Assembly: GCA_025352885.1 (NCBI GenBank)
Contig: JANXRZ010000240.1
Span: forward strand, 26,573 to 90,572
Length of the DNA: 64,000 nucleotides
From: Pseudomonadota bacterium
Lineage (GTDB): Bacteria; Pseudomonadota; Gammaproteobacteria; Burkholderiales; SG8-39
Direction of reading: 5' to 3'
Every line of letters starts with the position of its first letter. Position 1 is the first letter of the stretch. Below are positions 24,929-54,568 of the stretch, piece after piece. The translations under genes were made by a program, and so were the position numbers. The notes beneath the pieces were generated by a model. That model had not been told where the DNA came from. It saw only the letters and a list, made by a program, of their open reading frames with translations, and searched no databases.

Positions 24929-24935
24929 TGCGCGG

Positions 24936-26746: not shown

Positions 26747-26761
26747 TTCGGGTGTCTCCTT

Positions 26762-27571
26762 CTAATGCGCGGTTGAGGTGGCGGAAAGCGCGAGCTCGAC
26801 TTCTTCTTCGTTTCCCTGCCCCCCGCTCCCATAGAGCTCTCGGGCGGTAGCCTCGGTCAAGGCCGACGGCGGGCCGTCGAACACGATTGCGCCTTTGCGC
26901 ATGCCGATGATCCGGTCGCAGTAGTCGCGAGCGGTCTGCAGCAGGTGCAGGTTGGAGATGACCGTGATGCCGTCCTCCTGGTTGATCCTGCGCAGGGAAT
27001 CCATGACGATGGTCGCGTTGCGCAGGTCGAGCGAGGCAATCGGCTCGTCGGCCAGCAGGATCCTGGGCTCCTGCACGAGGGCTCGGGCAATCGCTACCCG
27101 CTGCTGTTGGCCTCCCGACAATTCGTCCGCGCGGTGCAGGCCGTGCGACACCATGTCGAGCCGCTGCAAGGCGCGGATAGCGAGCGCGCGGTCCGCGTCC
27201 GAAAATCGCATGAGGAGCGTAGTGAGCGTCGAGTGATAGCTGATGCGGCCCATCAGCACGTTGCTGATCACTGCGAGCCGCGGCACGAGGTTGAACTGCT
27301 GGAACACCATCGCGCACCGCGCACGCCACTGTCTCACCCTGCGTCCCGTGAGAGCGCAGACATCGACTTCTTCCCCCTCGAAGACGTCGTCGCAGAGAAT
27401 GCGCCCGGACGAGGCGTCCGCGAGCCGGTTGATCATGCGCAACAGCGTGGACTTGCCCGCGCCCGAGCGGCCGATGATGCCGACCATCTGGCCGCGAGGC
27501 ACCTCGAACGACACGTTGTCGACGGCAACCAGCGACCCGAACGTCTTTGTCAACCGCTCGACCTTGAGCAC
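26762..27571 (-). CDS. phnC: Phosphonate-type ABC transporter ATP-binding protein
   Basis: 269 residues with Walker [11 protein letters not shown]-loop [11 protein letters not shown], signature [16 protein letters not shown], Walker [13 protein letters not shown] and switch histidine in SNLHLL, in the PhnC-like order. The [14 protein letters not shown] segment and [15 protein letters not shown] match PhnC over other importers. Start GTG 27571 has GGGAGG five bases upstream. It is the first gene of phnC-D-E-E and is divergent from a nucleotidyltransferase gene 164 bases away; no C-P lyase genes are present in the window. Confidence 0.94.
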
Positions 27572-40318: not shown

Positions 40319-41278
40319 TCAGTCCGGCTTGGCGCCGGACACCTTTACCAAGCGCGCGTAAAGCGCCTTCTCGCTTTCTATGAACGAGGTGAACGCTTCG
40401 GGCGAGCGGATGGAAGGCGTCTCCGAACCCATGGTGCGCAGCCTTTCCTTGGTGTCCGCTGAATCGAGCGCCTTGAAAATTTCGGCCGAAAGGCGGGCGA
40501 CGACCTCGTTCGGCGTCTTCCCCGGGGCCATTACGCCCCACCACGTGGTCATGTCGAAGCCCTTGAGGCCGGATTCGTCGAGCGTGGGCAACTCGGGGAC
40601 GAAGCCCGTGCGTTTTTTCGTCGTGACCGCCAGCGCGCGCACCTTGCCGGCCTTGATGTTGGGCAGCGAGCTTGCAAGGTTGTCGAACATGAGGTGCAGG
40701 CGCCCGGACATGAGGTCGAGCACGGCCGGCGCCGAGGCTTTGTACGGAATGTGGACCATGTAAGTGCCGGTCATCTGCTTGAAGAGTTCGCCGGCCAGGT
40801 GTCCCGTCGAGCCCGTCGAACCCGAGCCGAAGTCGAGCTTGCCGGGACGCGATCTGGCCAATTCGACGAGCTCCCGCACGTTTCGCGCCGGCAGGTCGTT
40901 GTTGACGATGAGCACGTTCGGCACCTGCACGACGAGCGCGACGTGCCGGAAATCCCGGATCGGGTCGTATGGCAGGCTCGGCATGAGCGCGGGGTTGATC
41001 GCATGCGTGGCGATCGCGCCCATGAGGAGCGTGTAGCCGTCGGGGGCGCTCTTGGCCACGTAGTCGGCCGCGATCACGCCACCGGCGCCCGGCTTGGTTT
41101 CCACTACGACGGGCTGCCCGAGGGCCTCCTGCAGCTTTTGCGCGATTACGCGCGAAGAGATGTCCACCGGCCCGCCCGGATACGGGCAGATCAGCCTGAC
41201 GGGTTTGGAAGGCCACGCCTGGGCCGCGACCACCCCTGCCTGGGCAAGCAGTGCCAGCCCGATCAACAGTCGCTTCAT
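40319..41278 (-). CDS. Bug-family TTT periplasmic substrate-binding receptor (4)
   Basis: 319 residues with signal peptide MKRLLIGLALLAQAGVVAAQA and Bug core: PVRLICPYPGGPVDISSRVIA, SAPDGYTLLMG, SGSTGSTGHLAGELF and a C-terminal VKVSGAKPD. GGAGG lies eight bases before the ATG. It follows tctB-tctA on the same strand and is a likely cognate receptor, but an intrinsic terminator stands directly before its ribosome-binding site, so its level may be set separately from the membrane subunits. Confidence 0.92.
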   Translation of the reverse strand: MKRLLIGLALLAQAGVVAAQAWPSKPVRLICPYPGGPVDISSRVIAQKLQEALGQPVVVETKPGAGGVIAADYVAKSAPDGYTLLMGAIATHAINPALMPSLPYDPIRDFRHVALVVQVPNVLIVNNDLPARNVRELVELARSRPGKLDFGSGSTGSTGHLAGELFKQMTGTYMVHIPYKASAPAVLDLMSGRLHLMFDNLASSLPNIKAGKVRALAVTTKKRTGFVPELPTLDESGLKGFDMTTWWGVMAPGKTPNEVVARLSAEIFKALDSADTKERLRTMGSETPSIRSPEAFTSFIESEKALYARLVKVSGAKPD

Positions 41279-41342: not shown

Positions 41343-42851
41343 TTAAGCTTCGACGAACGCCTCTTCCCGCTTCTTCCGGATGTTCGGCAGCAGCAGGATG
41401 ATGAGGAGCACGATCGAGGCGATCAGGAACCCGGCGCTGATCGGCTTGGTGAAGAACACGATCGGGTCGCCTCGAGAAAGCAGCATCGCCCGGCGCAGGT
41501 TCTCTTCCATGAGGGGCCCGAGGATGAATCCGAGCAAGAGCGGTGCCGGCTCGCACTCGAGCTTCACGAAGACGTAACCCAGGAGGCCGAAGATCATCAT
41601 GAGCAGCACGTCGAACGGGTTGTTCGAGAGGCTGTAGACACCGATCGCCATGAACACGAGGATCGACGGGAACAGGATGCGGTAAGGCACCGTCAGCAGC
41701 TTGATCCACAAGCCGATCATCGGCAGATTCAGGATCACGAGCATGAGGTTGCCCACCCACATCGAGCAGATCATGCCCCAGAAGAGTTGCGGCTTCTCGG
41801 TCATCACCTGCGGACCCGGGGCGATGCCCTGGATCATCATCGCGCCGATCATGAGCGCCATTACGGCGTTCGACGGGATGCCCAGCGTGAGCAGCGGGAT
41901 GAACGAAGTCTGGGCGCCGGCATTGTTTGCCGACTCGGGTGCAGCTACCCCTTCGATGGCGCCCTTGCCGAACTCGTGGCCGTATTTCGAAACCTTCTTC
42001 TCGAGCGTGTAGGCGCCGAACGAGGCGAGCAGCGCGCCGCCGCCCGGCAGGATGCCGAGCGCCGAGCCGAGGAACGTCCCGCGCAGGATGGGCTTCCACA
42101 TGCGCTTCCAGTCCTCCTTCGTCGGGAACATGTTGGTCACCTTGTTGGTGAACACCTCGCGCTCGTCCTTGAGCTCGAGGTTGGTGATGATCTCTGCGAT
42201 CCCGAACAGGCCCATCGCGACCGTCACGAAGCCGATGCCGTCGGCCAGTTCCGAGATGCCGAAGGCAAAGCGCAGGACGCCTGAGTTCACATCCGTGCCA
42301 ACGAGGCCGAGCAGGAGCCCGAGGATCACCATGGCGACGGCCTTGAGCACCGACCCGTGGGCGAGCACGACGGCCGCCACGAGACCCAGCACCATCAGCG
42401 AGAAGTATTCCGACGGGCCGAACTTCAGCGCGACTTCTGCAAGCGGCGGCGCGAACATCGCCACGATCACCGTGGCCACGCAGCCGGCGAAGAACGAGCC
42501 GATCGCAGCAGTGGCGAGTGCGACGCCCGCCCTGCCCTGCCGGGCCATCTGGTAACCGTCCAGGCAGGTCACCACCGAGGAGGATTCTCCCGGGAGGTTG
42601 ACGAGAATCGCGGAGGTCGAGCCGCCGTACTGGGCGCCGTAGTAAATGCCGGCCAGCATGATGAGCGCCGTGATCGGCGACAGGCTGAAGGTGACCGGCA
42701 GGAGCATCGCGATGGTGGCGACCGGCCCGATGCCCGGGAGCACCCCGATGAGGGTGCCCAGCAGTACGCCGATCAGGCAATACAGCAGGTTGACCGGCGT
42801 GAGTGCGACACCGAAACCAAGGGCGAGGTTGCTGAAGAGATTCATGTCCAT
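41343..42851 (-). CDS. tctA: TTT family transporter large membrane subunit TctA
   Basis: 502 residues with about 12 hydrophobic segments. The N-terminal GTLIGVLPGIGPVATIAMLLP and YGGSTSAILVNLPGESSSVVTC motifs and the later GLPGGGAL-like turn (ILPGGGALLASFGAYTLEK) are invariant TctA features. With TctB it forms the secondary transporter that takes a substrate from a Bug receptor. It follows tctB by ten bases. A terminator lies directly downstream. Confidence 0.96.
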   Translation of the reverse strand: MDMNLFSNLALGFGVALTPVNLLYCLIGVLLGTLIGVLPGIGPVATIAMLLPVTFSLSPITALIMLAGIYYGAQYGGSTSAILVNLPGESSSVVTCLDGYQMARQGRAGVALATAAIGSFFAGCVATVIVAMFAPPLAEVALKFGPSEYFSLMVLGLVAAVVLAHGSVLKAVAMVILGLLLGLVGTDVNSGVLRFAFGISELADGIGFVTVAMGLFGIAEIITNLELKDEREVFTNKVTNMFPTKEDWKRMWKPILRGTFLGSALGILPGGGALLASFGAYTLEKKVSKYGHEFGKGAIEGVAAPESANNAGAQTSFIPLLTLGIPSNAVMALMIGAMMIQGIAPGPQVMTEKPQLFWGMICSMWVGNLMLVILNLPMIGLWIKLLTVPYRILFPSILVFMAIGVYSLSNNPFDVLLMMIFGLLGYVFVKLECEPAPLLLGFILGPLMEENLRRAMLLSRGDPIVFFTKPISAGFLIASIVLLIILLLPNIRKKREEAFVEA

Positions 42852-42861
42852 GGTTTTCTCC

Positions 42862-43314
42862 TCAGCCCAGGAAGTCGGGCCAGAGCGGGAAGGGCAGCGT
42901 AAGGCCCTTCACGAACACCAGCACGGAAAAGATGATCAGAACGATGGTGAGGATCCCCACTTCCTTCGCCTTGAACTCGTGGCCGCCGAAAGCGCACACG
43001 AAGATCAGCACGACCAGCGCAAGAACGAAACCCAGGGGCTTGAGCAGGTACCCGAACAGCACCAGCGAAAGGGAGATGAAGAACAGCGGCTTGAAGGAAA
43101 ATTTCGGAAGACCCTCGCCCTGCACGACCAGCGCCTGGAAGAGGACGATCGCGCCAAGCACCGCCATGATGCCGCCAAGGACGGTCGGGAAGTACGCCGG
43201 ACCCATGCGCACCGCGCTTCCCATCTGGTAGTTGCGCGCAACGACAAGGAAGAACAGGCCGAACGCGATGAACAGCAGGCCTGCCCAGAAATCCTTGGGA
43301 CTTTTGATCTTCAT
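42862..43314 (-). CDS. tctB: TTT family transporter small membrane subunit TctB
   Basis: 150 residues with four hydrophobic helices: DFWAGLLFIAFGLFFLVVARNY at the start, the MGPAYFPTVLGGIMAVLG segment (GxAxxFP is typical of TctB) and paired C-terminal helices. It completes the membrane complex with TctA. A Bug receptor gene lies 214 bases upstream on the same strand and another follows tctA, so two receptors flank this one transporter. Confidence 0.94.
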   Translation of the reverse strand: MKIKSPKDFWAGLLFIAFGLFFLVVARNYQMGSAVRMGPAYFPTVLGGIMAVLGAIVLFQALVVQGEGLPKFSFKPLFFISLSLVLFGYLLKPLGFVLALVVLIFVCAFGGHEFKAKEVGILTIVLIIFSVLVFVKGLTLPFPLWPDFLG

Positions 43315-43528: not shown

Positions 43529-44503
43529 CTAGTCGACCTGTGCGCCCGACGCCTTCACGACGCGCGCCATCTTGTCGAAATCGGCTCGCAGCAGGCGGGA
43601 GAACTCTTCGCTCGAGAGCGCCTGCGGCTCGATGCCCTGCTTGGCGAGCCGCTCGAGGATGACCGGGTCCCTGAGCAGCTTGCCGACGGCCGCATTCACC
43701 TGCTCGACGATCGCCCTCGGCGTGCCCGCCGGCCCCAGCAGGCCGAACCAGGAATCGAATTCGTATCCGGGCAGGCCGCTCTCTGCGATCGACGGGATCT
43801 CCGGCAGGAACTTCGAGCGCTTGGCCGATGTGACGCCGATCAGCCGGACCCGTGAATCTTTTACAAACGGAATGGCGCCGATGTTGGCTGCGATGACCGC
43901 CTGCGCCCGCCCGACCACGACTTCGTTCACCGCCTCGCCGGTCGCCTTGAAAGGAATGTGGACGAGATCGATGCCGGCAAGGCCATTGAAATACGCCATC
44001 GAAAGATGCGTGGCGCTGCCGTTCCCTGCGGTTGCGTAATTCATCTTGCCCGGATTGGCTTTGGCATAAGCGATGAACTCCGCCACGTTCTTCGCCGGCA
44101 CCGCGGCATTCACAATCAATACGTAGCTGGCATTGCCGATATGCGCGATGGCCGAAAAATCCTTGATGGGGTCATAAGCAAGTTTTTTGTAAAGCGACCC
44201 GTTGATGGTGTGGCTCGCGGCGGAAAGCACCATCGTGGTGCCGTCCGGGACGCTCTTGGCGACTTGCGCATTGGCAATCGTGCCGCCGGCGCCCGGCCGA
44301 TTTTCCACGATGACGCTCGTGCCGAGCGCCTGCCCGAGTTCATTCACGATCGAACGGGCAAGGATGTCCTGCACCCCGCCCGAGGCGAAAGGCACGATCA
44401 CATGAACGACCTTGCCGGCGGTGAGCTGCGCGTGAGCGGGCACAGCGCCCAATGCGAGGGTCGTTGCCGCGGCAATGAGGCGAAGGGTCGAGAAAACACG
44501 CAT
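43529..44503 (-). CDS. Bug-family TTT periplasmic substrate-binding receptor (5)
   Basis: 324 residues with signal peptide MRVFSTLRLIAAATTLALGAVPAHAQ and Bug core: VVHVIVPFASGGVQDILARSI, SVPDGTTMVLS, GNGSATHLSMAYF and VKASGAQVD at the end. ATG 44503 begins a normal signal peptide; the frame is open further upstream but without one. It lies upstream of tctB-tctA on the same strand, separated by 214 bases, and is the other candidate receptor for that transporter. Confidence 0.92.
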   Translation of the reverse strand: MRVFSTLRLIAAATTLALGAVPAHAQLTAGKVVHVIVPFASGGVQDILARSIVNELGQALGTSVIVENRPGAGGTIANAQVAKSVPDGTTMVLSAASHTINGSLYKKLAYDPIKDFSAIAHIGNASYVLIVNAAVPAKNVAEFIAYAKANPGKMNYATAGNGSATHLSMAYFNGLAGIDLVHIPFKATGEAVNEVVVGRAQAVIAANIGAIPFVKDSRVRLIGVTSAKRSKFLPEIPSIAESGLPGYEFDSWFGLLGPAGTPRAIVEQVNAAVGKLLRDPVILERLAKQGIEPQALSSEEFSRLLRADFDKMARVVKASGAQVD

Positions 44504-44526: not shown

Positions 44527-45267
44527 TCAAGGTGGGCCGAATGATATATCGCCATAGAATGCCACGGCCGTTTCGCCGGTGTTGTCCGTGTCGGTCGACA
44601 CGATCACCCCGCTCACTTGGGGCGGCGCCGTTCCGAACGCCCGGCGATAGTCCGTCGCAATGTTGCGCTCTACGCGCACCCACTTCCCGGTGCGGGCCGA
44701 TCCGCTTTCCGCCACGATCATCGCAACCCGTGGCGTGTAGGCGTTCGGCAAGAACGTGTCCCGCGGCGCCTTGCCGTCCCAGACGTAGCACAGGGCGGCG
44801 GCGGGCACCCGCTCGCCGTAGAGCATTCGCGCAAGTGATAGCTTCATGCGCTCACCCGCGGGAAGCGTTGCGGGATCCACGTCGAACGTGACGTATACGC
44901 GGGCGACGAAGTCATCACCTTCCTTCGTGCGCAAGTCGCCCTTCTCGACCACGCTCATCGCCTTCCAGCGCCAAGAGAGCGTTGGATGGGTCCTGGCATC
45001 GACACGCATCTCGCGTACGATTCCCGAAGCGGAGCGTTCTGCATCAGCGCGCAGCACGACTTCGCCTTCGTCGGCGACCAGCGTATAGCGCGTTTCCGGG
45101 GCGCGATTGCCGAATCCCCACGGCCTGAGCTCATCAGGCAGGCGGCCGCCGGCCTGAAGAGTGGAGAACCGCATGGCGTCGATGCGGGAGGCCTGTGCGC
45201 CGGCGGGTCCGGCGCCTCCCGCCGCTAGGACGCCCGCGGTCAATCGCAGCCATCTCCGACGGTTCAC
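44527..45267 (-). CDS. DUF3047 domain protein, exported
   Basis: 246 residues. An N-terminal Tat-like signal (MNRRRWLRLTAGVLAAGGAGPAGAQ, with RRRWLR) precedes a DUF3047 domain with WKAMSVVEKGDLRTKEGDDFVARVYVTFD, LCYVWDGKAP and VRVERNIATDYRRAFG. DUF3047 proteins are jelly-roll-like periplasmic proteins of unknown function. The ATG overlaps the stop of a glycosyltransferase gene (ATGA), making it the last member of a leftward cluster around an ArsS-family radical SAM gene. Confidence 0.88.
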   Translation of the reverse strand: MNRRRWLRLTAGVLAAGGAGPAGAQASRIDAMRFSTLQAGGRLPDELRPWGFGNRAPETRYTLVADEGEVVLRADAERSASGIVREMRVDARTHPTLSWRWKAMSVVEKGDLRTKEGDDFVARVYVTFDVDPATLPAGERMKLSLARMLYGERVPAAALCYVWDGKAPRDTFLPNAYTPRVAMIVAESGSARTGKWVRVERNIATDYRRAFGTAPPQVSGVIVSTDTDNTGETAVAFYGDISFGPP

Positions 45268-45890
45268 GGCCGCCGCTCCAACAGCGTTCCTGCCTTCAGG
45301 CGATCAAGGTCCGCCGGACGATCGACATCCCAGACCGTGCGCAATTCGCGCCAGCGCCAGCCCAGGCGCGCAAGCTTTTTGCGCGTCTCTTCCATCACCG
45401 ACGGCGTGCTCCAGGAAATCCCCTCGAACAAAGAGGCCGAAGGTCGCGCAAGACCGATCAGCGGATACCCCCCGTCCTCCGCCGGCGCGAAGACGGCGTC
45501 GCATCCCCGCAGCAGTCGCGCAGCCCGGCGAAGGTCGGCGACCGTCAGCGCCGGACAGTCCGCCCCGACAAGGACCATGCGCCGGTGGCGCCGCAATCCA
45601 CCCCGAAAGGCTTCGTGCATTCGCCGGCCGACATCGCCCTCCGACTGGTGTCGCAGCTCTACACCATGACGCTGCGCGAGCGCACGCAGCCATGCGTGAC
45701 CCGCAGGCGCTCCATGCAATTCGACGGGTCCGCAGGCGGCTTTTACAGCGGTGCGGAGAGTGCAATTGAGCAGCCGCGCGTGAAGTTTTGCCGCAGCCTC
45801 GTCGCCGATCGCGGCAGCAAGGCGCGTCTTCACGCGCCCGGCCTGCGGCGCCTTCGCCAGCACGACGACAAGGGTAGAGGGGTCGCGCAT
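45264..45890 (-). CDS. rSAM/selenodomain-associated glycosyltransferase type 1 (TIGR04282, DUF2064)
   Basis: 208 residues with VLAKAPQAGRVKTRLA at the N-terminus, the middle VLVGADCPALT with a D-C-P motif, a DAVFAPAEDGGYPLIGL block and WDVDRPADLDRL at the end. This is the CofC-like nucleotidyl/glycosyltransferase 'transferase 1' that co-occurs with ArsS/SeCys-domain radical SAM proteins. It may activate a sugar or phosphate compound with a nucleotide. It sits between transferase 2 (four-base gap) and the DUF3047 gene (ATGA overlap). Confidence 0.88.
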   Translation of the reverse strand: MRDPSTLVVVLAKAPQAGRVKTRLAAAIGDEAAAKLHARLLNCTLRTAVKAACGPVELHGAPAGHAWLRALAQRHGVELRHQSEGDVGRRMHEAFRGGLRRHRRMVLVGADCPALTVADLRRAARLLRGCDAVFAPAEDGGYPLIGLARPSASLFEGISWSTPSVMEETRKKLARLGWRWRELRTVWDVDRPADLDRLKAGTLLERRP

Positions 45891-45894
45891 CGCC

Positions 45895-46572
45895 TCAGGA
45901 GCGCCGGTTGTAGAGGCGCGCGAGGTTGTCCGGATCGGCGCCGAAAAAATACAGGAGTCGCAACCGCCACATGAGCACCATTGTGGCGACGATGCCGTTA
46001 CCTTCCCACCTGCGCGCCGCGGTAACGACTTTGGCTCGCAGGCACGCGGGAGGGCCGATCTCCTTGAGCGCGCTTGACAGCGCGATGTCCTCCATGAGTG
46101 CAATCGGCGGGAATCCGCCGGCCGCGTCGAACGCCTCGCGCCCGGCGAACATCGCCTGGTCGCCCGTCGCAATGCCGGTAAGCCTCGAACGCAGGTTCAT
46201 CACCGTCCCTACCAGCGCGAGGAGCGGGTGGGACGAATCGAGGCGCACATCGAACCGGCCCCAGCGGCGCTGCTGCAGCGCCCGGGCAATGAGTTCATCG
46301 GCCTTACCTGGCAGGCGCGTGTCGGCATGCAGGAAAAGAAGAGCTTCTCCAGAGGCCGCCCGCGCACCGGCGTTCATCTGGGCCGCACGGCCACGCTGCG
46401 ACGTAAGCACACGATCGGCGAGCGGTTCGGCGCGCAGGCGCGTGGCATCGGCGCTTCCGCCGTCGACTACGATGACTTCATGGCCGCGCTCGCGCAGCGG
46501 CTGGAGCGCGCCAAGGCAATCTGCTATGCGCGCTTCCTCATCCAGGACGGGAACGACAATCGAGATGCGCAT
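45895..46572 (-). CDS. rSAM/selenodomain-associated glycosyltransferase type 2 (TIGR04283, GT2)
   Basis: 225 residues of the GT-A (GT2) fold: SIVVPVLDEEARI at the N-terminus, VIVVDGGSADAT, LLFLHADTRLP as the D-x-D equivalent, and GDQAMFAGREAFDAAGGFPPIALMEDI. The MFAGREAFDAAGGFP block is characteristic of 'transferase 2' associated with ArsS-like radical SAM genes. A short hydrophobic stretch near the C-terminus suggests membrane contact. It is followed by transferase 1 after four bases. In arsenosugar models these transferases would add sugar groups to the product. Confidence 0.88.
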   Translation of the reverse strand: MRISIVVPVLDEEARIADCLGALQPLRERGHEVIVVDGGSADATRLRAEPLADRVLTSQRGRAAQMNAGARAASGEALLFLHADTRLPGKADELIARALQQRRWGRFDVRLDSSHPLLALVGTVMNLRSRLTGIATGDQAMFAGREAFDAAGGFPPIALMEDIALSSALKEIGPPACLRAKVVTAARRWEGNGIVATMVLMWRLRLLYFFGADPDNLARLYNRRS

Positions 46573-46591
46573 TCCGTAGCCGAGCGCCCGT

Positions 46592-47383
46592 TCATTTTCG
46601 GGCGTCGTTGAGGCTCCAGTCGTATTCGAGGAATGAAAGGGGCGCCTTGCCCTCGGCAACGACCTTTTGGCCTTCCGGCGTCTCGGCGAGGACTTTCGCG
46701 TACTTCGCAAAGTACTGCTCGCGCATGCCGAAGTCCTCCTTGAACCAGTCGAAGATCTTGGAGACCTCGAGCTTCCCGTTTTCATAGCGATTGCGCGAGC
46801 GGTCGGAGAGGAACCGGATCGCCTGCTCATCGAGCTGCCGCTCGAGTTTTGCGGCCGTATACGCTTCCTCGCGCAGCATGGGGCAGCCGATGGACGCGCA
46901 ATTCAATGCGTAGTGCACCCTGGGCTCGTTATACGCGCCCGGTTTGCGCAAGGTCTCGTGTTCGATCTGGTCCAGGAAGGATTCGCGCCCGAACAGCGTG
47001 AAGAATTTATCCTTCCAGGGATTGCCGAACACGGTGCCGAAATCGCGGATGGACTTGAGGTTCGGGTACCGGGTGAGGATCTTCTCGACGGTGAATGCGT
47101 TGTAGGCGTTGATGAGGAACGCCATGCGCTGCTCCCTCGACCAGCCGTTGAATTCGGCCTCGGGCACTTTGGAGAGCGTGTCGAGATAGGCCTTGAGCGC
47201 GGGGCGCTCCCTGGCGAATTCCGCATAACGCACCTGCGAGGCCTTGCCGCCCTGCAGCACCACTACGTTTTTGCCCAGCAGCGCGTCCCACGCCTTGTGC
47301 GAGTGGTCGAACCCCTGCGCCATGGCGCCGCCACAAAGGCACAACAACAAGCCGGCAACCAGGCTCGCCACAAATCGGTTCAT
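46592..47383 (-). CDS. DUF547 domain protein, exported
   Basis: 263 residues. A signal peptide (MNRFVASLVAGLLLCLCGGAMAQG) is followed by a DUF547 domain: FLINAYNAFTVEKILTRYP, a mid-protein RVHYALNCASIGCPML and SKIFDWFKEDFG. The papain-like folds proposed for DUF547 rest on the Asn-rich/Cys/His positions visible here, but no activity is established to my knowledge. ATG 47383 is chosen over 47401 because GAGG lies six bases before it and it avoids overlapping the upstream stop. It lies in the ArsS cluster. Confidence 0.88.
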   Translation of the reverse strand: MNRFVASLVAGLLLCLCGGAMAQGFDHSHKAWDALLGKNVVVLQGGKASQVRYAEFARERPALKAYLDTLSKVPEAEFNGWSREQRMAFLINAYNAFTVEKILTRYPNLKSIRDFGTVFGNPWKDKFFTLFGRESFLDQIEHETLRKPGAYNEPRVHYALNCASIGCPMLREEAYTAAKLERQLDEQAIRFLSDRSRNRYENGKLEVSKIFDWFKEDFGMREQYFAKYAKVLAETPEGQKVVAEGKAPLSFLEYDWSLNDARK

Positions 47384-47385
47384 GT

Positions 47386-49536
47386 TCAGCCTCGCATCCA
47401 TGTGTGGAATTTCTCGATCCGCGCAAGCCAAGCCTGCGGCGCATGCGCTTTCTTCCAGACTCCCGCGGCAAACTTGTTGGCCTCGACCATTGTCGGGTAG
47501 ATGTGGATTGTGCCGAGGATCTTGTTCAGCCCCAGCCCATGACGCATGGCGGTCACGAATTCGGCGATGAGGTCCCCGGCGTGCTCGCCGACGATGGTCG
47601 CGCCGAGGATCGTGTCCTTGCCCGGCACCGTGAGCACCTTTACGAAGCCGTGCGCTTCCTCATCGGCGATCGCGCGATCGAGGTCGTCGATGCCGTACAC
47701 CGACACTTCGACCGGGATACCCTTCTCATTGGCTTCCGTTTCGTTCAATCCGACGCGCGCGACCTCGGGGTCCGTAAACGTCGCCCACGGAATCACGGAA
47801 TAGTCCGCCCGGAACTTCTTCAGGCCACCGAAGAGCGAGTTGACCGATGCGTACCACGCCTGATGGGAGGCGGTATGCGTGAACTGGTAAGGGCCGGCCA
47901 CGTCGCCGCAGGCATAGATGTTCGGATAGATCGTCTGCAGGTACTCGTTCGTCTGCACGGTGCGTGTCTTGGTCAGCGGGATGCCGAGCTCCTCGATCCC
48001 ATAGCCCGTCACGCGCGGCGCCCGGCCTACCGCCACGAGGACGGCGTCGAACTCGATGCGCACCTCGCCACCTTCGCGCTCGCAGACCAGCACCTTGCGC
48101 CCGTCGTCCTGCAGGAACTGCTTCGCCTTGTGCCCGACCAGCACATCGACGCCTTCTTCGCGGAACTTATTGGTCACCATCTCGGATATTTCCGGGTCTT
48201 CGCGGATCATGATCCGCGGCAGCATCTCCACCTGCGTGACTTTGGCGCCGAGGCGGCAGAACGCCTGCGCAAGCTCGCACCCGATCGGCCCGCCGCCGAG
48301 CACCACGAGGCGCTTCGGAAGCGTACGCAAGGACCAGAGCGATTCCGACGTGAGGTAACCGATCGTGTCCAGGCCCGGGATGGGCGGCACGAAGGGCGCG
48401 GCGCCCGCCGCGATCACGATGGAACGCGTAGTCAGCGTGCGCGTGGCTCCGCCAGCCTCGCGAATCTCCACTTCCCAGGGCGAGAGCATCTTTGCCTCAC
48501 CCATGACGCATTCCACGCCAAGCGACGTGTACCGCTCGACCGAGTCGTGCGGCTCGATGGTCTTGACGACGCGCTGGACGCGCTCCATCACGTCGGCAAA
48601 GTCGAATTCGACTTCGGCGCTCTTCAGCCCGTACTCCTTCGCGCGCCGCATTTGCGCGAGCACTCGGGCCGTTTTGATCAACGCCTTGGAAGGTACGCAG
48701 CCCGTGTTCAGGCAGTCGCCGCCCATTTCGTGCTTTTCGATCAGCGTGACTTTCGCCTTGACGACCGCCGCGATCAACGCTGCGACGAGGCCGCCGGACC
48801 CGGCCCCGATCACGACCATGTTGCGATCGAATTTCGCGGGCTTGGTCCAGCGCGCGTATACCTTGCGCGCCTTGAAGAAATCGATTGCCTTCGAAGCAAT
48901 GAGCGGAAACAGCCCCAGCAATACGAATGCGCCGATCAGTCCCGGCGAAAGGATCCCCGACAACGATTCGAGCCGCGCGAGCTGCGTGCCGGCATTCACG
49001 TAGACCAGCGTCCCGGCCAGCATGCCGACCTGGCTTACCCAATAGAACGTCCGAGCGCGCAGCGGCGTGAGGCCCATTGCGAGGTTGACCACGAAGAACG
49101 GCACGACCGGGATGAGGCGCAGCGTAAAGAGGTACAGCGCACCCTCTCGCTCCACGCCGTCGTTGATCCGCTTGAGGGTGGTCCCGAATTTCGACTGGAC
49201 CCAGTCACGCAGGAGGAACCGCGAGGCCAGGAACGCCAAGGTGGCCCCGATCGACGAGGCGAATGAAACGATGAGGGTGCCCCAACCCAGGCCGAAGATG
49301 GCGCCCGCGGCCAGCGTCAATATCGTTGCGCCCGGCAACGACAACCCGGTCACCGCGACATAAAGCGCGAAGAAGCACAGGGCCGTGACGAAAGGATGGC
49401 TCTCGTACCAGGCCCCAATGGCCGCCTGGTGAGCCTGCACCTGCTCGAAGCTGAGGTATCGGTGGCCGCCGAGCGCGAAGAAGGCCCCGACCGCCACGGC
49501 GATCCCGGCCAGCACGACAAGCTTCGACTTCCTCAT
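47386..49536 (-). CDS. TVP38/TMEM64 membrane domain fused to a flavin disulfide reductase
   Basis: 716 residues. Residues 1-225 form a TVP38/TMEM64 (DedA-related) domain with SLPGATILTLAAGAIFGLGWG, LRLIPVVPFFVVNLAMG and several helices. Residues about 238-716 form a complete class I flavin disulfide reductase (mercuric reductase/lipoamide dehydrogenase-like): GAGSGGLVAA FAD loop, the redox pair GGDCLNTGCVPSK, an NAD(P)H-binding GGGPIGCELAQAFCRLG and a dimerisation domain ending VHIYPTMVEANKF with an His-Tyr-Pro turn. A reductase anchored in the membrane by a lipid-flippase-like fold could deliver electrons to a periplasmic or membrane thiol; the partner is unknown. Part of the ArsS cluster. 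Confidence 0.92.
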   Translation of the reverse strand: MRKSKLVVLAGIAVAVGAFFALGGHRYLSFEQVQAHQAAIGAWYESHPFVTALCFFALYVAVTGLSLPGATILTLAAGAIFGLGWGTLIVSFASSIGATLAFLASRFLLRDWVQSKFGTTLKRINDGVEREGALYLFTLRLIPVVPFFVVNLAMGLTPLRARTFYWVSQVGMLAGTLVYVNAGTQLARLESLSGILSPGLIGAFVLLGLFPLIASKAIDFFKARKVYARWTKPAKFDRNMVVIGAGSGGLVAALIAAVVKAKVTLIEKHEMGGDCLNTGCVPSKALIKTARVLAQMRRAKEYGLKSAEVEFDFADVMERVQRVVKTIEPHDSVERYTSLGVECVMGEAKMLSPWEVEIREAGGATRTLTTRSIVIAAGAAPFVPPIPGLDTIGYLTSESLWSLRTLPKRLVVLGGGPIGCELAQAFCRLGAKVTQVEMLPRIMIREDPEISEMVTNKFREEGVDVLVGHKAKQFLQDDGRKVLVCEREGGEVRIEFDAVLVAVGRAPRVTGYGIEELGIPLTKTRTVQTNEYLQTIYPNIYACGDVAGPYQFTHTASHQAWYASVNSLFGGLKKFRADYSVIPWATFTDPEVARVGLNETEANEKGIPVEVSVYGIDDLDRAIADEEAHGFVKVLTVPGKDTILGATIVGEHAGDLIAEFVTAMRHGLGLNKILGTIHIYPTMVEANKFAAGVWKKAHAPQAWLARIEKFHTWMRG

Positions 49537-49599
49537 GAGACGCGTCCCCCTGCCCTTCGTCCTTCCCTTGCCTTGCCCGGACCTGCGGGGCCCGGAATC

Positions 49600-50565
49600 T
49601 TACAGCGCGAGTTCTGGCTCAGCCTGCCTGCCCAAGCGAACCGCGTCTCCCATGGTGTAGGTCGGGCCCTGGGTGATTCGGTTGAAATAGGACATGTGCG
49701 CATCGGACCCCGCCGGCCACTGCTCGAGGAAGCGCGGCTTCCAGGCCTCGGCGTCATACACGACAGAAACCGCGTCCACATGAACGCCTTGGACGGTCGT
49801 GCCATAGAGCGCCCGGCCCTCCGGGGGGTGGACCGAGATGCGCGTCGCGATACCGTGCAGCGCGCCGCGAAAATTCGGCATCCCCGCCGCGCCATTGTTG
49901 ATGAGGACGGCTTCGCGTGGCACATCGGCAATGCGCTGGAGCACCGGTAGGCAGGTGTGGCTGCTGGCCATGATGCTCACGCCCGAAGATCCGAATGCAG
50001 CACGGGCGGCGGCAAGCCCTTCGGCCGTGGCGAGCGCCTCCTGCGAAAATGCCCAGCCGGCAAGCGAACCGCCATCGCCGTGGACGATGCCGACCTTGAC
50101 GCCTGCGACCCGCGCGACAATGAACATGGGCAACGCGCCCAGCCGGGCAGTCAATTCGGGGAACTGCTGCGCCGTTTCGCGCAGGCGCTCCTGGATCCGG
50201 TTCGAGCGCATCACTTCCGCATCGCCCACCCAGTCGGGATAGCCGCACCCGCATCCGGCGTCCTTTCCGGGCTGCGCGAGTTCTGTCTCCACGTTTCCGC
50301 GCGTCGCCAGGTGCGCGAGCACTGTTTCATTGATGCGTCGAAAGTCTTCCGGATTTACATCGAACCAGTTGAAATCGCCATTGAAGACCAGCCGGGCACC
50401 CGGTTCCGAGGCAACGAGGTCGAGCAGGGCGTCAAGCGCCAAGGGATTGCCGTACAACCCGCCCGCGACATACAGGGTGTCGGCGGCGAGGGAAGGTTCC
50501 GCACGCAAAGCTTCTGCGCCATACCGGTAACTTACGGGACAGGCGCGGCCCGGGCCTTCAGCCAT
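49600..50565 (-). CDS. Metallophosphoesterase-like protein
   Basis: 321 residues from ATG 50565. Metal-ligand blocks run in calcineurin-like order: LYVAGGLYGN, NGDFNWFD, ATRGNVE, IVHGDGGS and SHTCLP; the usual GD and GNH elements appear as GDF and GNV. A cysteine pair in CGCGYPDW is unusual for the family and may relate to the thiol or arsenic chemistry suggested by the neighbours. It overlaps the ArsS-like gene by eight bases. An in-frame ATG at 50610 is the alternative start. The substrate is unknown. Confidence 0.78.
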   Translation of the reverse strand: MAEGPGRACPVSYRYGAEALRAEPSLAADTLYVAGGLYGNPLALDALLDLVASEPGARLVFNGDFNWFDVNPEDFRRINETVLAHLATRGNVETELAQPGKDAGCGCGYPDWVGDAEVMRSNRIQERLRETAQQFPELTARLGALPMFIVARVAGVKVGIVHGDGGSLAGWAFSQEALATAEGLAAARAAFGSSGVSIMASSHTCLPVLQRIADVPREAVLINNGAAGMPNFRGALHGIATRISVHPPEGRALYGTTVQGVHVDAVSVVYDAEAWKPRFLEQWPAGSDAHMSYFNRITQGPTYTMGDAVRLGRQAEPELAL

Positions 50566-51523
50566 CCAGCGCGCCGCCGCAGGAGGAGCCTTGGCCGGCC
50601 GTACAGCCATAACAATGGTCGCGCACCGAGATCGGGTTGCCCGCGAGGTCGCGCCCGATGAGGTCGGACAGTTGCGGGCGACGCTTGCCTTCGATGACCA
50701 GCGGCAGGCCGAGCATCTGGTTGAAATCGCAGTCGTACACGGCGCCTTGCCAGTCGACTGAGAGGAGCGACCGGCACATGACGCCTTCCAGGTTTTCGTC
50801 CCGGTGGGCGCCCTTGAGCAGCGTCATGTAGTCGCCAAACTGTCCCTTGGAAACGAGCGTGCTGCCGAACCGCTGGATCGGCATGTTCGCCAGCGTGTAC
50901 AGGCGGTTGAAAACGATGCCGTGCCGCGAGCCAAGCTCGCGTTTGTAATCGGCCTCGAGCGCCTCCTGGCCAGGGGGCAGCGAGGGGCCCTGGGGGTTGT
51001 AGACGAGGTTGAGCACGAGACCGCTGCCGTCCTTGCCATAGCCGAGCGCATTGAGGCGCACCAGACCCGCGATGCTCTTTTCGTAGACTCCCTTGCCTCT
51101 TTGGCGATCGACAAGGTCTTCCGTGTAGCAAGGCAGGGACGCGGTGATCTCGACTTCGTTTGCGGCGAGGAATTCGGCGAGCCCTTCCTGGCCCGGCTCC
51201 TCGAGGATCGTGAGGTTGCATCGGTCGATGATTCGGGTACCCAGCTCACGCGCGCGGCTCACGAGCTCGCGGAAATGCGGGTTGAGCTCAGGCGCGCCGC
51301 CGGTGACGTCCAGCGTGCGGATCCCGGCCACCGCAATGAACGACAGCACATCGCCGATCGTCTCGCGGGACATCAGCTCCGTGCGCGTCGGCCCGGCGTT
51401 TACATGGCAATGCAGGCAGCTCTGGTTGCATTTGTATCCCAGGTTGACCTGCAGGGTTTCCAGGCGGCCGCGGCGAAGCGCGGGAAACCCGAATTGCTGG
51501 ATCAACGGTAATGTGGCGTGCAC
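50558..51523 (-). CDS. ArsS-family radical SAM protein (TIGR04167, DUF3641)
   Basis: 321 residues. CNQSCLHCH (CxxxCxxC) near residue 31 binds the [4Fe-4S] cluster; TGGAPELN and RCNLTIL are the SAM-binding and barrel motifs. The C-terminal domain ends with CYGCTAGQGSSCGGAL, the cysteine-rich tail of the ArsS/SeCys-domain family (selenocysteine in some relatives; here ordinary cysteines). ArsS proteins make arsenosugar precursors by adding a 5'-deoxyadenosyl group to dimethylarsinite in cyanobacteria. Start GTG 51523 has GAGGA eight bases upstream. The arsenic role is inference here, since no arsM is in the window. Confidence 0.87.
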   Translation of the reverse strand: MHATLPLIQQFGFPALRRGRLETLQVNLGYKCNQSCLHCHVNAGPTRTELMSRETIGDVLSFIAVAGIRTLDVTGGAPELNPHFRELVSRARELGTRIIDRCNLTILEEPGQEGLAEFLAANEVEITASLPCYTEDLVDRQRGKGVYEKSIAGLVRLNALGYGKDGSGLVLNLVYNPQGPSLPPGQEALEADYKRELGSRHGIVFNRLYTLANMPIQRFGSTLVSKGQFGDYMTLLKGAHRDENLEGVMCRSLLSVDWQGAVYDCDFNQMLGLPLVIEGKRRPQLSDLIGRDLAGNPISVRDHCYGCTAGQGSSCGGALDG

Positions 51524-51613: not shown

Positions 51614-52186
51614 TCAGGGGGGCGGCCAGACCGTGCCGTTCTGCATGCGTTCGTCGAGGACGCTCACGAGGCGGGAGCTTGTGGCGCGCAGCCGCTGGGA
51701 GAGCATCAGCACGAATTCCATCAGGATCTTGGCGCCCAGCATCGGCTGCTCGACGATGATACGGGCCAGGTTTTCCCGGTTCAGCACGGCGATCATCGTG
51801 GGCTGGTCCGCAATACAGGTGGCAAAGCGCGGTTCCCCGTCGATCATGGACATCTCGCCAAGGGTCTTGCCCGCATCGACCACGGCGATCACCTGCTGGG
51901 TGTTCCAGCGGTCGCGCTTCATCACCTCGACCCGCCCTTCGATGATCATGAGCATGAAATCGCCGCCTTCACCTTCGCGGATGATCTCCGCGCCCTGCCC
52001 GCACATGTAAACGTCCATGAAGTGGGACAGCAGGCGAACCTCTGCGTGCGAAAAATTTTCGAGGAGGTTGCATTTCGGGATCAATGCATGGATCTGCCCC
52101 GAGAATTTGGTCGCATCGCCCAGAAAGTCGAGGTGGGCCAGCTGGTTTGGGCGATCGGACATGGGCATGGCGGCTTTGCGGTCCAT
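51614..52186 (-). CDS. Cyclic nucleotide-binding domain protein without output domain
   Basis: 190 residues. One cNMP-binding domain: GAEIIREGEGGDFMLMIIEGRVEV, the phosphate-binding cassette GKTLGEMSMIDGEPRFATCIA, in which the E and the R contact the nucleotide in CRP-like proteins. There is a C-terminal helix but no HTH. It may allosterically control a partner protein. It is one base away from the UbiA-like gene upstream and 90 bases ahead of the ArsS-like gene, inside the same leftward run. Confidence 0.87.
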   Translation of the reverse strand: MDRKAAMPMSDRPNQLAHLDFLGDATKFSGQIHALIPKCNLLENFSHAEVRLLSHFMDVYMCGQGAEIIREGEGGDFMLMIIEGRVEVMKRDRWNTQQVIAVVDAGKTLGEMSMIDGEPRFATCIADQPTMIAVLNRENLARIIVEQPMLGAKILMEFVLMLSQRLRATSSRLVSVLDERMQNGTVWPPP

Positions 52187-52187
52187 T

Positions 52188-53063
52188 CTAGCCGATCAGA
52201 AGCACCACGGCCGTCATCCAACCCGCCGCCGACCCGAGCAACCACGGGTCGTCCAGGAGCTCGTTCGAGGGATTGCCTCCCCCACCCCGATGGCGCAGGA
52301 GAAATAGATAACGAAATGTCCCGAACAAGACGAACGGCAGCGTCAGCGTAAGGTCGGTGCCGTGCTCCGCCAGGGTCGTGGCGGACACCGTATAAAACCC
52401 GTACGCGATCATCATCCCCAGCGCGCACATGAGCACCGCCGCATCGAGGAACGATTCGCTGTACGCATCGAGCACGGGACGGTGCCGGCCCGCGTCTTCG
52501 GCCAGGCGAATGAGCTCGGCGCGGCGCTTCGCAAAGCCGAGGAACAGCGTCACGAGAAAACCGCAGAACAGGAGCCACCGGGACGGCTCGATGCCGATCC
52601 CAAGCGTGCCGGCAAGGATGCGCAACATGAATCCCGAGGCGATGATGAAGACGTCCACTACCGGGATTCGCTTCAGTCCCAGCGAGTACGCAAGGTTCAG
52701 CAGCGCATAAAGCAGGAGGATTACGGCGACCAGCGTACTGACATAAGCGCCCAGCGCCAATGCGGCGATTGCCAGCACCAGCGCGAACAGGACGGCCGCC
52801 CGGACACTGATTTCGCCGCTCGCGATCGGCCGCGAGCGCTTGTCCGGATGGTCCCGGTCGCGCTCCCGGTCGAAGCAGTCGTTCATCGCATAGACCGCAC
52901 TCGACATGAGGCAGAAAGCAACGGTTGCAAGCAGCGCGGCCGAGAGCATGTCGGGCTGGGCGAGGCCATGGCCGAAAATCAGGCCCGGCAGCACGAAAGC
53001 GTTCTTGATCCATTGCTGCGGGCGGGCCAGCCGGGCTAGTCCCCGGACGCTCATCTTCCGCAT
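52188..53063 (-). CDS. UbiA-family decaprenyl-phosphate phosphoribosyltransferase-like enzyme
   Basis: 291 residues with eight to nine helices. RPQQWIKNAFV, NDCFDRERDRDHPDKRSRPIASG (Asp-rich NDxxDxxxD with KRxRPIASG) and a second aspartate-rich loop match the DPPR synthase branch (UbiA_DPPR) that transfers phosphoribose from PRPP to decaprenyl phosphate. This supplies lipid-linked ribose or arabinose donors. The following GT39-type gene overlaps it by 13 bases, suggesting a joint lipid-linked glycosylation step. Confidence 0.86.
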   Translation of the reverse strand: MRKMSVRGLARLARPQQWIKNAFVLPGLIFGHGLAQPDMLSAALLATVAFCLMSSAVYAMNDCFDRERDRDHPDKRSRPIASGEISVRAAVLFALVLAIAALALGAYVSTLVAVILLLYALLNLAYSLGLKRIPVVDVFIIASGFMLRILAGTLGIGIEPSRWLLFCGFLVTLFLGFAKRRAELIRLAEDAGRHRPVLDAYSESFLDAAVLMCALGMMIAYGFYTVSATTLAEHGTDLTLTLPFVLFGTFRYLFLLRHRGGGGNPSNELLDDPWLLGSAAGWMTAVVLLIG

Positions 53064-54568
53064 GCGTCGCCCGGGAAATACCGCTCGCAGAAATAGCAGC
53101 CGCCGATCGGCAGGAATGCCGGGATGCGGTACCAGCGGTCACGCACGCTCTTCAGCACGCCTTCACGATAGGCCTGGTAGTCGAATCCTTTGCCAAGCAC
53201 GAGATGCAGTGTCGTGCCGGAAGTTTCGATCGTGCGCACTTCGATGGACTTGAAATACGGCCGGTAATCCTGCTCAGGCGGTGGATCGCGCCGCACGATC
53301 AGGATGTCCTTGCCCTCGAAGGACCGAACGTCGGTGACGATATCGTCGTGGCGCGCATGCGAGGTGCCTGCGCCGAAAACAAAGAAGTACCGTCCGCCGT
53401 AATAGGACAGGATCGATGACAAGGTGTAGTTGTCGGTCGCCGGAATGTAGTCCTTGTAGGGAGCGAGCTTGGCCACCACCTCCGCCGTGCGGAATTGCAG
53501 CACGAGGCGCGAATACAGCCGGTTGGATTTCCACACTTCCAGTGGAATGGCGGCCAGCACCCCGGCCACGACTACGTGGAGGACGGCGAACACCGCAAAG
53601 AAGCGCACGCATTTCGCAAGCTTTTCCACCGGCAGTGCGATGGCCAGTGTGAGGACGAGTGGCGCAATGAAGGACAGCAGCCAGTGCAGCCCGACCTTCT
53701 TGAGCGGCGAAAGCGCAGCGAACACGGCCAGCGGCACGAGCCATGCGAGCAGGAGCGCGCGTGAGCCTGGCCCCCTTTGCAATCGGGCCAGCGATGCGCG
53801 CTCACGCCACGCGTACCAGAGCAAGGGCGCCGCAAGATAGGCGAGCGAGGCGATATAGAGAAGGGGGTTGCGCCAACCCAGGCCGGAGCCTTCGTGCCGG
53901 TTGATTGCGTTGAACATGATGTTCGACCAGCAGGCTTCGTAATTCCAGTAGAGGTTCAAGAGGCCGGCGGGCAATGCGCCGAGGAGTACCAACCCGAGCG
54001 CGCTCCACCTGCGCTCACCACGCCCGCCAAGCGCCCAGGCAATCATGCCCAGGCCCAGCAGCACGGCGAAGTACTTCGAGAGGAAGGCAAGGCCCAGGCA
54101 GACTCCGGCGAGCAGGAAGCCGGGACGCCAGCTTTGTTCGGCGGCACGCGCGAAGAGCACGATCGCCCCGAACGAAAACAGGATCAATGGCGTGTCGGTC
54201 GTGATCAGCACGTTCCACACGTTCATCGGGACCAGCAGGACGAGCGCGCCCGCGAAGTCCGCAACGTTTTGCGGGCGCCCGAACCACCTGGCGAGTGTCC
54301 AACGCACACCGAAACCCAAGGCGACCGGCAGCAGGACTGCGGGCAGGCGAAGCACCCATTCACTCATCGACAGCGGCGCCAGGAGCGCCAGCAGCCATCC
54401 AACCATCGGCGGATGATCGTAGTACCCGAGCGCCGGCTGCTGGCCCCACACGAGGAAGTACGCTTCGTCCCCCGTGAGCGGCACGACGCTCGCAAGCCAG
54501 GCACGAAAGACCAGCGTGCAGGCCAGCGCGCCGAAGAACCAGCGACGGGCGATGTGGTCGGCCTTCAT
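53051..54568 (-). CDS. GT39-type (PMT/ArnT-like) glycosyltransferase
   Basis: 505 residues with about ten membrane helices. An N-terminal periplasmic loop TGDEAYFLVWGQQPALGYYDHPPMVGWLLAL carries the DE motif and YYDHPP of the glycosyltransferase 39/83 family, which uses polyprenyl-phosphate sugars. A periplasmic C-terminal domain with FVFGAGTSHARHDDIV follows. Substrate and product are unknown. It lies between a TauE-like permease gene (ATGA overlap) and the UbiA-family gene (13-base overlap). Confidence 0.88.
   Translation of the reverse strand: MKADHIARRWFFGALACTLVFRAWLASVVPLTGDEAYFLVWGQQPALGYYDHPPMVGWLLALLAPLSMSEWVLRLPAVLLPVALGFGVRWTLARWFGRPQNVADFAGALVLLVPMNVWNVLITTDTPLILFSFGAIVLFARAAEQSWRPGFLLAGVCLGLAFLSKYFAVLLGLGMIAWALGGRGERRWSALGLVLLGALPAGLLNLYWNYEACWSNIMFNAINRHEGSGLGWRNPLLYIASLAYLAAPLLWYAWRERASLARLQRGPGSRALLLAWLVPLAVFAALSPLKKVGLHWLLSFIAPLVLTLAIALPVEKLAKCVRFFAVFAVLHVVVAGVLAAIPLEVWKSNRLYSRLVLQFRTAEVVAKLAPYKDYIPATDNYTLSSILSYYGGRYFFVFGAGTSHARHDDIVTDVRSFEGKDILIVRRDPPPEQDYRPYFKSIEVRTIETSGTTLHLVLGKGFDYQAYREGVLKSVRDRWYRIPAFLPIGGCYFCERYFPGDACGR

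Follow-up and report, generated by a model that had tools for sequence, protein, structure and literature searches.

A Car1-related metallophosphoesterase and transporter genes accompany ArsS in a widespread variant of the arsenosugar gene cluster

The window analyzed here, 64,000 nucleotides of contig JANXRZ010000240.1 from a Pseudomonadota bacterium of the order Burkholderiales (assembly GCA_025352885.1), contains a seven-gene cluster built around arsS, which encodes a radical S-adenosylmethionine (SAM) protein of the arsenosugar family. Rather than an ordinary ArsM–ArsS cluster, this is a widespread variant that carries transporter genes and a metallophosphoesterase-fold protein (hereafter MPE) related to the arsenate reductase Car1. 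Across betaproteobacteria, MPE and ArsM, the arsenite methyltransferase, swap with each other beside ArsS. As a tentative explanation, to which we give clearly less than even weight, the variant could be a second, ArsM-free entry to arsenosugars, in which a methylarsenical importer works with an MPE turned organoarsenical reductase, its hydrolase site dismantled and its redox CxC motif kept.

All seven genes, whose presence was checked, lie on the minus strand from position 51523 down to 44527 of the window. Successive genes are spaced by -8, 63, 2, 19, 4, and -4 nt, so the description of seven leftward genes with gaps of 90 bases or less, made in a first, sequence-only reading of this DNA, holds; its identification of the VTT-FAD reductase fusion and of the DUF547 and DUF3047 proteins likewise agrees with the Pfam matches. 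The cluster features are as follows:

50558..51523, minus strand: arsS, GTG start; radical SAM protein, arsenosugar family (TIGR04167, PF04055, PF12345/DUF3641)
49600..50610, minus strand: MPE; likely start ATG 50565, with a further ATG upstream at 50610
50242..50253, minus strand: CGCG of MPE, residues 120-123 in the numbering from 50610
47386..49536, minus strand: fusion of a VTT (TVP38-type) membrane domain with a MerA/lipoamide-dehydrogenase-like FAD disulfide reductase (PF09335, PF07992, PF02852)
46592..47383, minus strand: DUF547 protein with an N-terminal hydrophobic stretch, start refined (PF04784)
45895..46572, minus strand: TIGR04283 arsenosugar-family GT2 glycosyltransferase (270.7 bits, cut-off 182)
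45264..45890, minus strand: TIGR04282 arsenosugar-family CofC-like transferase (195 bits, cut-off 134)
44527..45267, minus strand: DUF3047 protein (PF11249, 250.9 bits)

Read from ATG 50565, MPE overlaps ArsS by 8 nt. The identity of ArsS and its transferases is very nearly certain. ArsS clears the TIGR04167 cut-off of 300 with 453.9 bits, also matches PF04055 and PF12345/DUF3641 (PF12345, 182 bits), and carries both the cluster motif CNQSCLHC (CX3CX2C) and a Cys-rich tail, CYGCTAGQGSSCGG, confirming the earlier call of an ArsS with such a tail; it is the only ArsS above the cut-off in the genome. The TIGR04282 protein additionally matches the CofC guanylyltransferase model weakly (39.1 bits, cut-off 105). 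According to PMC12159101 and PMC8552651, arsenic is adenosylated by a radical SAM enzyme, and ArsS acts with ArsM in Synechocystis. For the window ArsS, the predicted reaction is adenosylation of a trivalent methylarsenical.

MPE relatives are encoded on 378 genome-contig stretches; the locus figures below refer to the best 80, many of which are ended by contig edges. Within 8 kb of MPE in these loci lie genes for ArsS (62), VTT (54), FAD reductase (53), TIGR04283 (51), TIGR04282 (50), DUF547 (34), DUF3047 (24), and MTAP (7). The arrangement is thus conserved, and the co-occurrence of ArsS with the two transferases, noted before, recurs in these loci.

The window's genome, a 4.88-Mb assembly in 294 contigs with 99.84% completeness and 5.21% contamination, was searched for ArsM in several ways. 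Profile NF008823 gave 20 matches, all below its cut-off of 263 bits (best, 56.7); the long ArsS-linked ArsM gave no match in the genome at E ≤ 1e-3, and a 25-row ArsM profile gave none at E ≤ 1e-25. Within the window, tblastn with the long ArsM gave no match at E ≤ 1e-4. The sequence-only reading, which saw no arsenite methyltransferase, is therefore borne out both in the window and genome-wide. Its proposal that a distant arsM feeds the pathway is left unsupported: the searches of this genome yielded none, and ArsM is present in only 9 of 50 MPE-carrying genomes (E ≤ 1e-25). These 50 genomes were taken from the best 80 loci, picked so as to include longer contigs and loci without ArsS nearby; 46 have an ArsS above the cut-off, and eight of those 46 have ArsM. 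The long ArsS-linked ArsM was matched at none of the 80 MPE loci (E ≤ 1e-8).

Two wider samples comprised 276 genomes from the class and 240 from the window's order; the p values given are from Fisher tests, which ignore kinship. In the class sample, ArsS was found above the cut-off in 140 genomes, ArsM in 120, and both in 100, with ArsM in 20 of the 136 ArsS-free genomes. The order sample contains MPE in 39 genomes, ArsS in 75, and ArsM in 31. Here, ArsS accompanies MPE closely, being present in 38/39 MPE-positive versus 37/201 MPE-negative genomes (p 4.5e-22). Among ArsS-positive genomes of the order, ArsM occurs in 6/38 with MPE versus 15/37 without it (p 0.022), and the long ArsS-type ArsM in 2/38 versus 10/37 (p 0.012). 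Counted per ArsS copy (78 copies), ArsM lies within 10 kb in 0 of 27 copies that have MPE within 10 kb versus 11 of 51 others (p 0.013). This per-copy comparison is the fair test; the higher figure of 28 ArsM-bearing loci among 71 MPE-free ArsS loci is biased, since for some of these loci the position of ArsM was known before they were selected. Both situations occur together in G449, where one of the two ArsS copies adjoins MPE and the other adjoins ArsM.

Two further cases illustrate how ArsS clusters vary. In G524, two ArsS clusters (L196 and L197) with VTT, FAD reductase, both transferases, and ArsM stand in one genome, with no MPE. Three genomes of a single genus (code g22: L149/G246, L151/G019, and L153/G151) all keep ArsS, the VTT-FAD reductase, and both transferases, whereas ArsM adjoins ArsS in only one of them and was not found in the remaining two; they form a natural deletion series.

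An ArsS tree of 135 rows (63 MPE-linked, 28 ArsM-linked, 44 linked to neither, and none to both) was built by a quick method, contains long rows, and leaves out cyanobacterial ArsS. On this tree, the window ArsS nests with six other MPE-linked rows (L004, L005, L007, and L012-L014; support 99*, the star denoting a supported branch), and this clade lies within a mixed set of MPE-linked, ArsM-linked, and unlinked rows. The radical SAM protein thus falls among other ArsS proteins and not outside the family. Starred branches force at least six changes for the MPE label and at least nine for the ArsM label. The idea that window-type ArsS proteins form a clade apart, acting on a substrate of their own, was rejected, as the two labels are interspersed. 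Because MPE-side and ArsM-side ArsS proteins alternate, the same substrate is favored; the "another substrate" option of the sequence-only reading survives as one of the rivals discussed below, with this alternation counting against it.

MPE has a predicted metallophosphoesterase fold, although its score for PF12850 (18.7 bits) is below the Pfam gathering score of 27. In the family alignment of 79 rows, PF12850 is matched by 44 and PF00149 by 25 (E ≤ 1), and the C-G-C core is invariant in all 79. The canonical metal-ligand motifs of metallophosphoesterases are DxH and GHxH. The window protein lacks DxH and the final His of GHxH (GGLYGN and SHTC stand instead), with GD, GN, and HG retained; the dinuclear hydrolase site is thus broken, and with these metal ligands lost, a role as an ordinary phosphatase was rejected. 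A sequence search of the PDB with MPE gave nothing at E ≤ 1. The family is large: of the 7,996 database candidates scored, 7,935 reach E ≤ 1e-3, and where members of the best 120 carry a name, it is hypothetical, predicted phosphodiesterase, or metallophosphoesterase family protein.

What this CGC might do is suggested by MPEs of arsenic resistance (ars) operons. Three genomes of the class with weak MPE matches (L094-L096) also carry CGC, and a plasmid tblastn with one of their MPEs gave 47 records, 11 of which were opened. In eight of these 11 loci—from Pontibacter, Hymenobacter (two), Pedobacter, Mucilaginibacter, Adhaeribacter, and Paraclostridium (two)—arsR and ACR3 and/or arsM lie beside MPE, and a ninth, from Rubrobacter, has ArsR, ArsC, ArsM, and ArsH. 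CGC is present in the aligned MPE of all nine ars loci; a second Pedobacter MPE, in tandem with the CxC copy, lacks CxC, as does the MPE of the eleventh locus, from Halapricum, which has no ars genes. The tenth, L232 (Roseomonas haemaphysalidis plasmid, 12.8 kb), is an arsenosugar-like cluster with TIGR04282, DUF547, two radical SAM proteins, PhnD-PhnE-PhnC-MPE (CGCGF), VTT, and FAD reductase, and without a TIGR04167 ArsS above the cut-off; one of its radical SAM proteins is nearest the Rv1681 family (94.9 bits; ArsS, 61.3 bits).

Comparison of the window MPE family with the ars-operon MPEs by hhalign gave a probability of 97.7% (E 2.3e-12) with CGC aligned on CGC, and through an intermediate group the two sides reached 99.6% (window family) and 99.9% (ars-operon MPEs). 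The profile alignment sets C120-G-C122 of the window protein on C74-G-C76 of an ars-operon homologue, the latter being the motif of the Hymenobacter plasmid MPE. PMC12124457 reports that Car1, which is the Rufibacter tibetensis arsenate reductase, requires both Cys74 and Cys76 and shares about 40% identity with an MPE from an ars operon of Paraclostridium dentum. Rufibacter belongs to the Hymenobacteraceae, as does Hymenobacter. Judged by its motif and homology, MPE probably works as a thiol reductase of arsenic. The earlier statement that the companions of ArsS have no assigned step can accordingly be refined for MPE, which travels with transporter genes and sits in a CxC branch that includes ars-operon MPEs, whose relative Car1 is a reported arsenate reductase; the literature searched assigned no steps to the genes around ArsS.

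Transporter genes are the second distinguishing feature of the variant. Within 8 kb of MPE in the 80 loci are SSS symporter (24), PhnE (20), PhnD (18), and TctA (6) genes. Of the 62 loci with both ArsS and MPE, 43 have a transporter within 8 kb of ArsS (SSS 24, PhnD/E 14, and TctA 5), and MPE lies within 8 kb of ArsS in 61. By comparison, SSS, PhnD/E, or TctA was found in 0 of 71 ArsS loci without MPE, as judged with MPE-linked SSS and PhnD/E and the window TctA as probes at ≥100 bits, a search that would miss unlike transporters; these 71 loci lack MPE in the stretch and include some from genomes with MPE elsewhere (L145-L147, L191, and L203). In all 24 loci that have SSS, it lies on the MPE strand and upstream of MPE, the matches being 0-90 nt apart; PhnE is upstream of MPE in 20/20 loci.

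In the window, the same-strand run goes on past DUF3047: after a gap of 23 nt follows a Bug-TctB-TctA-Bug tripartite tricarboxylate transporter (TTT), with these components:

43529..44503, minus strand: Bug/TctC receptor of the TTT, candidate importer part (PF03401, 247.4 bits)
42862..43314, minus strand: TctB small membrane subunit (PF07331, 66.2 bits)
41343..42851, minus strand: TctA large membrane subunit (PF01970, 550.9 bits)
40319..41278, minus strand: second Bug/TctC receptor (PF03401, 243 bits)

TctB-TctA also lies downstream in clade members L004, L007, L012, and L013, and is not found there in L005 (a short contig) and L014. A PhnC-D-E-E set is located 17 kb from the cluster (24029-27571, minus strand) and is 29-36% identical to the MPE-linked type; PhnC (315.6 bits) and both PhnE proteins (about 271 bits) score above their cut-offs, and PhnD scores 196.7 bits (TIGR01098, cut-off 112). 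This set may serve ordinary phosphonate uptake or may be a candidate importer for the pathway. It is followed by a gamma-glutamyltransferase gene (21149-23734).

These observations can be joined in a proposed sequence of reactions. A transporter would import a pentavalent methylarsenical, a step to which we assign slightly less than an even chance; in many relatives the candidate is PhnDEC or an SSS symporter, and for the window and its closest relatives it is the TTT, with the PhnC-D-E-E set of the window as an alternative. MPE would then reduce dimethylarsinate, DMAs(V), to trivalent DMAs(III) through C120 and C122, with CGC attacking the pentavalent arsenic, and the VTT-FAD disulfide reductase, which scores below the MerA and lipoamide dehydrogenase cut-offs, would restore the MPE thiols. 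Next, ArsS would adenosylate DMAs(III). In some relatives, including the Burkholderia glumae plasmid, an MTAP-like phosphorylase could release adenine to give arsenoribose-1-phosphate; TIGR04282 might then activate the arsenoribose phosphate as a nucleoside diphosphate (NDP)-sugar, and TIGR04283 might transfer the activated sugar to an acceptor. On that plasmid (L228), MTAP, TIGR04283, and TIGR04282 form one run on the opposite strand beside arsS-MPE, and MTAP is also near ArsS in the ArsM-type clusters L193, L195, L199, and L200. The FAD disulfide reductase, too, occurs in ArsM-type clusters.

The appeal of this scheme is that it would account for the swap. ArsM makes trivalent DMAs(III) inside the cell, so a cell that has it would need neither importer nor reductase; an ArsM-free importer of DMAs(V) would need a transporter and a reductase, which fits the two extras of the MPE clusters. 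For the chain as a whole, in which imported dimethylarsinate would be reduced by MPE and handed to ArsS in place of ArsM, we hold the probability to be appreciable but short of even. As a possible third alternative, a small gene lying between ArsS and VTT was sought in L206, L222, L225, and L226, with no consistent result.

Several observations weigh against this import-fed chain. In the order sample, 22 of the 37 genomes with ArsS and without MPE also lack detectable ArsM; absence of ArsM is therefore not peculiar to MPE, and MPE as a strict replacement of ArsM is ruled out. In independent phylogenetic pairs, MPE and ArsM never change the same way, but the pairs are too few for significance. 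MPE also occurs in genomes without a whole ArsS: G277, G278, G305, and G303 (a fragment) among the 50, G490 among the 39 of the order sample, and G051, G180, and G076 (a fragment) among seven strong cases in the class sample. ArsC is found in 3/9 ars loci as well (Mucilaginibacter, Rubrobacter, and one Hymenobacter), so MPE need not be the arsenate reductase there; furthermore, the ars-operon homologues keep the metal ligands that the window MPE has lost, and its chemistry may therefore differ. The window was searched for MTAP and SSS without a match to either. Finally, TTT transporters are common in betaproteobacteria, which makes the window's own importer the weakest link.

As a separate observation on G180, a contig (L141, G180:C16) of this genome, which has no ArsS above the cut-off, carries MPE, SSS, VTT-FAD reductase, and DUF3047 homologues together.

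The alternatives differ in which part of the cluster they take as central. MPE could be a plain arsenate reductase, like Car1, with ArsS adenosylating As(III) or a less methylated arsenical to give unmethylated or mixed arsenoribosides with no need of ArsM. The CGC homology to ars-operon MPEs, the failure to find arsM in the window's genome, and the membership of PhnD-type receptors in the phosphate/phosphite/phosphonate family all accord with this proposal. Yet MPE-side and ArsM-linked ArsS alternate on supported tree branches, which suggests one shared substrate; moreover, arsenate enters cells via phosphate uptake, and no dedicated importer would be needed for it. We regard this alternative as unlikely.

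Less probable still, MPE and the transporter might form a salvage module that hydrolyzes imported arsenosugar phosphodiesters or phosphorylated organics, the product being reworked by the ArsS-cluster enzymes. Such a role would suit a fold with SapH/Ap4A-hydrolase relatives and the PhnDEC-MPE or SSS-MPE modules that lack ArsS in the stretch analyzed (for example, L077, L082, L140, and L227). It sits poorly with the broken hydrolase site beside an invariant CGC and with the presence of ArsS in 38/39 MPE genomes of the order; indeed, the genomes of L077 and L082 have ArsS elsewhere (G323 and G325).

It is just as doubtful that this is an ordinary arsenosugar cluster whose arsM falls in a missing part of the assembly, with MPE and the transporters as accessories. 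The genome is a draft in 294 contigs, and 100 of the 140 ArsS-positive genomes of the class sample have ArsM; against this stand the completeness of 99.84% and the rarity of ArsM among MPE genomes (9/50) and loci (0/80) at the thresholds given above. A non-arsenic substrate (selenium or a phosphorus oxyanion analogue), which would have ArsS act on a different element with a lone pair, is very improbable. In its favor, TIGR04167 is named for selenoprotein members (one is listed in PMC13188914), and with TIGR04553, a putative selenate receptor (cut-off 250), the PhnD-like receptor of L031 also reaches 99.9 bits. Against it, close ArsS relatives are linked to ArsM, and CGC is common to MPE and the ars-operon MPEs; both observations indicate arsenic.

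Other genes around the cluster deserve brief mention. Directly upstream of arsS is a gene for a cyclic-nucleotide-binding protein (51614-52186, minus strand), which may be part of regulation in the window's clade, since it is near ArsS in 6/62 loci. Upstream of this gene, 52188-54568 (minus strand) encodes a PMT_2 glycosyltransferase and a UbiA-family protein, the latter with 268 bits for decaprenyl-phosphate phosphoribosyltransferase (cut-off 234). The two proteins are a possible ribosyl-lipid pair next to the arsenosugar cluster; in 4/62 loci, UbiA occurs close to ArsS. L228 additionally encodes a YiiX-like hydrolase, DUF547, and a second radical SAM protein (TrsS-like, 106 bits, cut-off 490), and MPE matches were seen in 47 Burkholderia plasmid records.

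The spread of ArsS in the class (140/276 sampled genomes) extends far beyond the cyanobacterium in which the articles cited here describe it. If MPE is indeed an importer-fed methylarsenical reductase, other bacteria would take up arsenic that microbes of soil and water have methylated and convert it into arsenosugars. This would be a community-level step of the arsenic cycle, in which these bacteria consume arsenic methylated by their neighbors, and a single fold would have passed from a phosphatase, by way of an arsenate reductase, to an organoarsenical reductase. The literature searched, insofar as its text was available, gave no account linking ArsS with MPE, and no paper was found joining any two of DUF547, arsenosugar, TVP38, TIGR04283, and DUF3641.

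Among known proteins of the MPE fold, the asymmetric Ap4A hydrolase SapH (3qfn) is a relative titled as a hydrolase, and the solved Sphaerobacter MPE (3rqz), unlike the window protein, has no CxC at the aligned place. The likeness to Car1 (Shen et al., 2024) comes through the description in PMC12124457 and through the ars-operon homologues: these proteins share the metallophosphoesterase fold family with the window MPE and have CGC at the residue numbers reported as essential. The window MPE differs in lying in an ArsS operon, in the loss of DxH and of the final His of GHxH, and in its extra conserved cysteines, C24 and C220. MrMe1 and MrMe2, ars-operon metallophosphoesterases of Mucilaginibacter gossypii called uncharacterised in PMC10652896, are a tandem pair comparable to that of Pedobacter, where one copy has CxC; no ArsS link appears there for MrMe1/MrMe2.

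At the level of pathways, two systems described in PMC8552651 and PMC12159101 invite comparison. The arsinothricin genes arsQML (PMC8552651) resemble the window in combining radical SAM formation of a C–As bond with a transporter gene, but there ArsL transfers a 3-amino-3-carboxypropyl group, ArsQ is a proposed exporter, and arsM is present. In Synechocystis, the ArsM–ArsS pathway (Xue et al., 2019; Cheng et al., 2021; as described in both articles) uses the same ArsS family, and the TIGR04282 and TIGR04283 proteins of the window are transferases named for the arsenosugar pathway, as with the Synechocystis-type system; where that system has arsM, the window, in which no arsM was found, has MPE and transporter genes instead.

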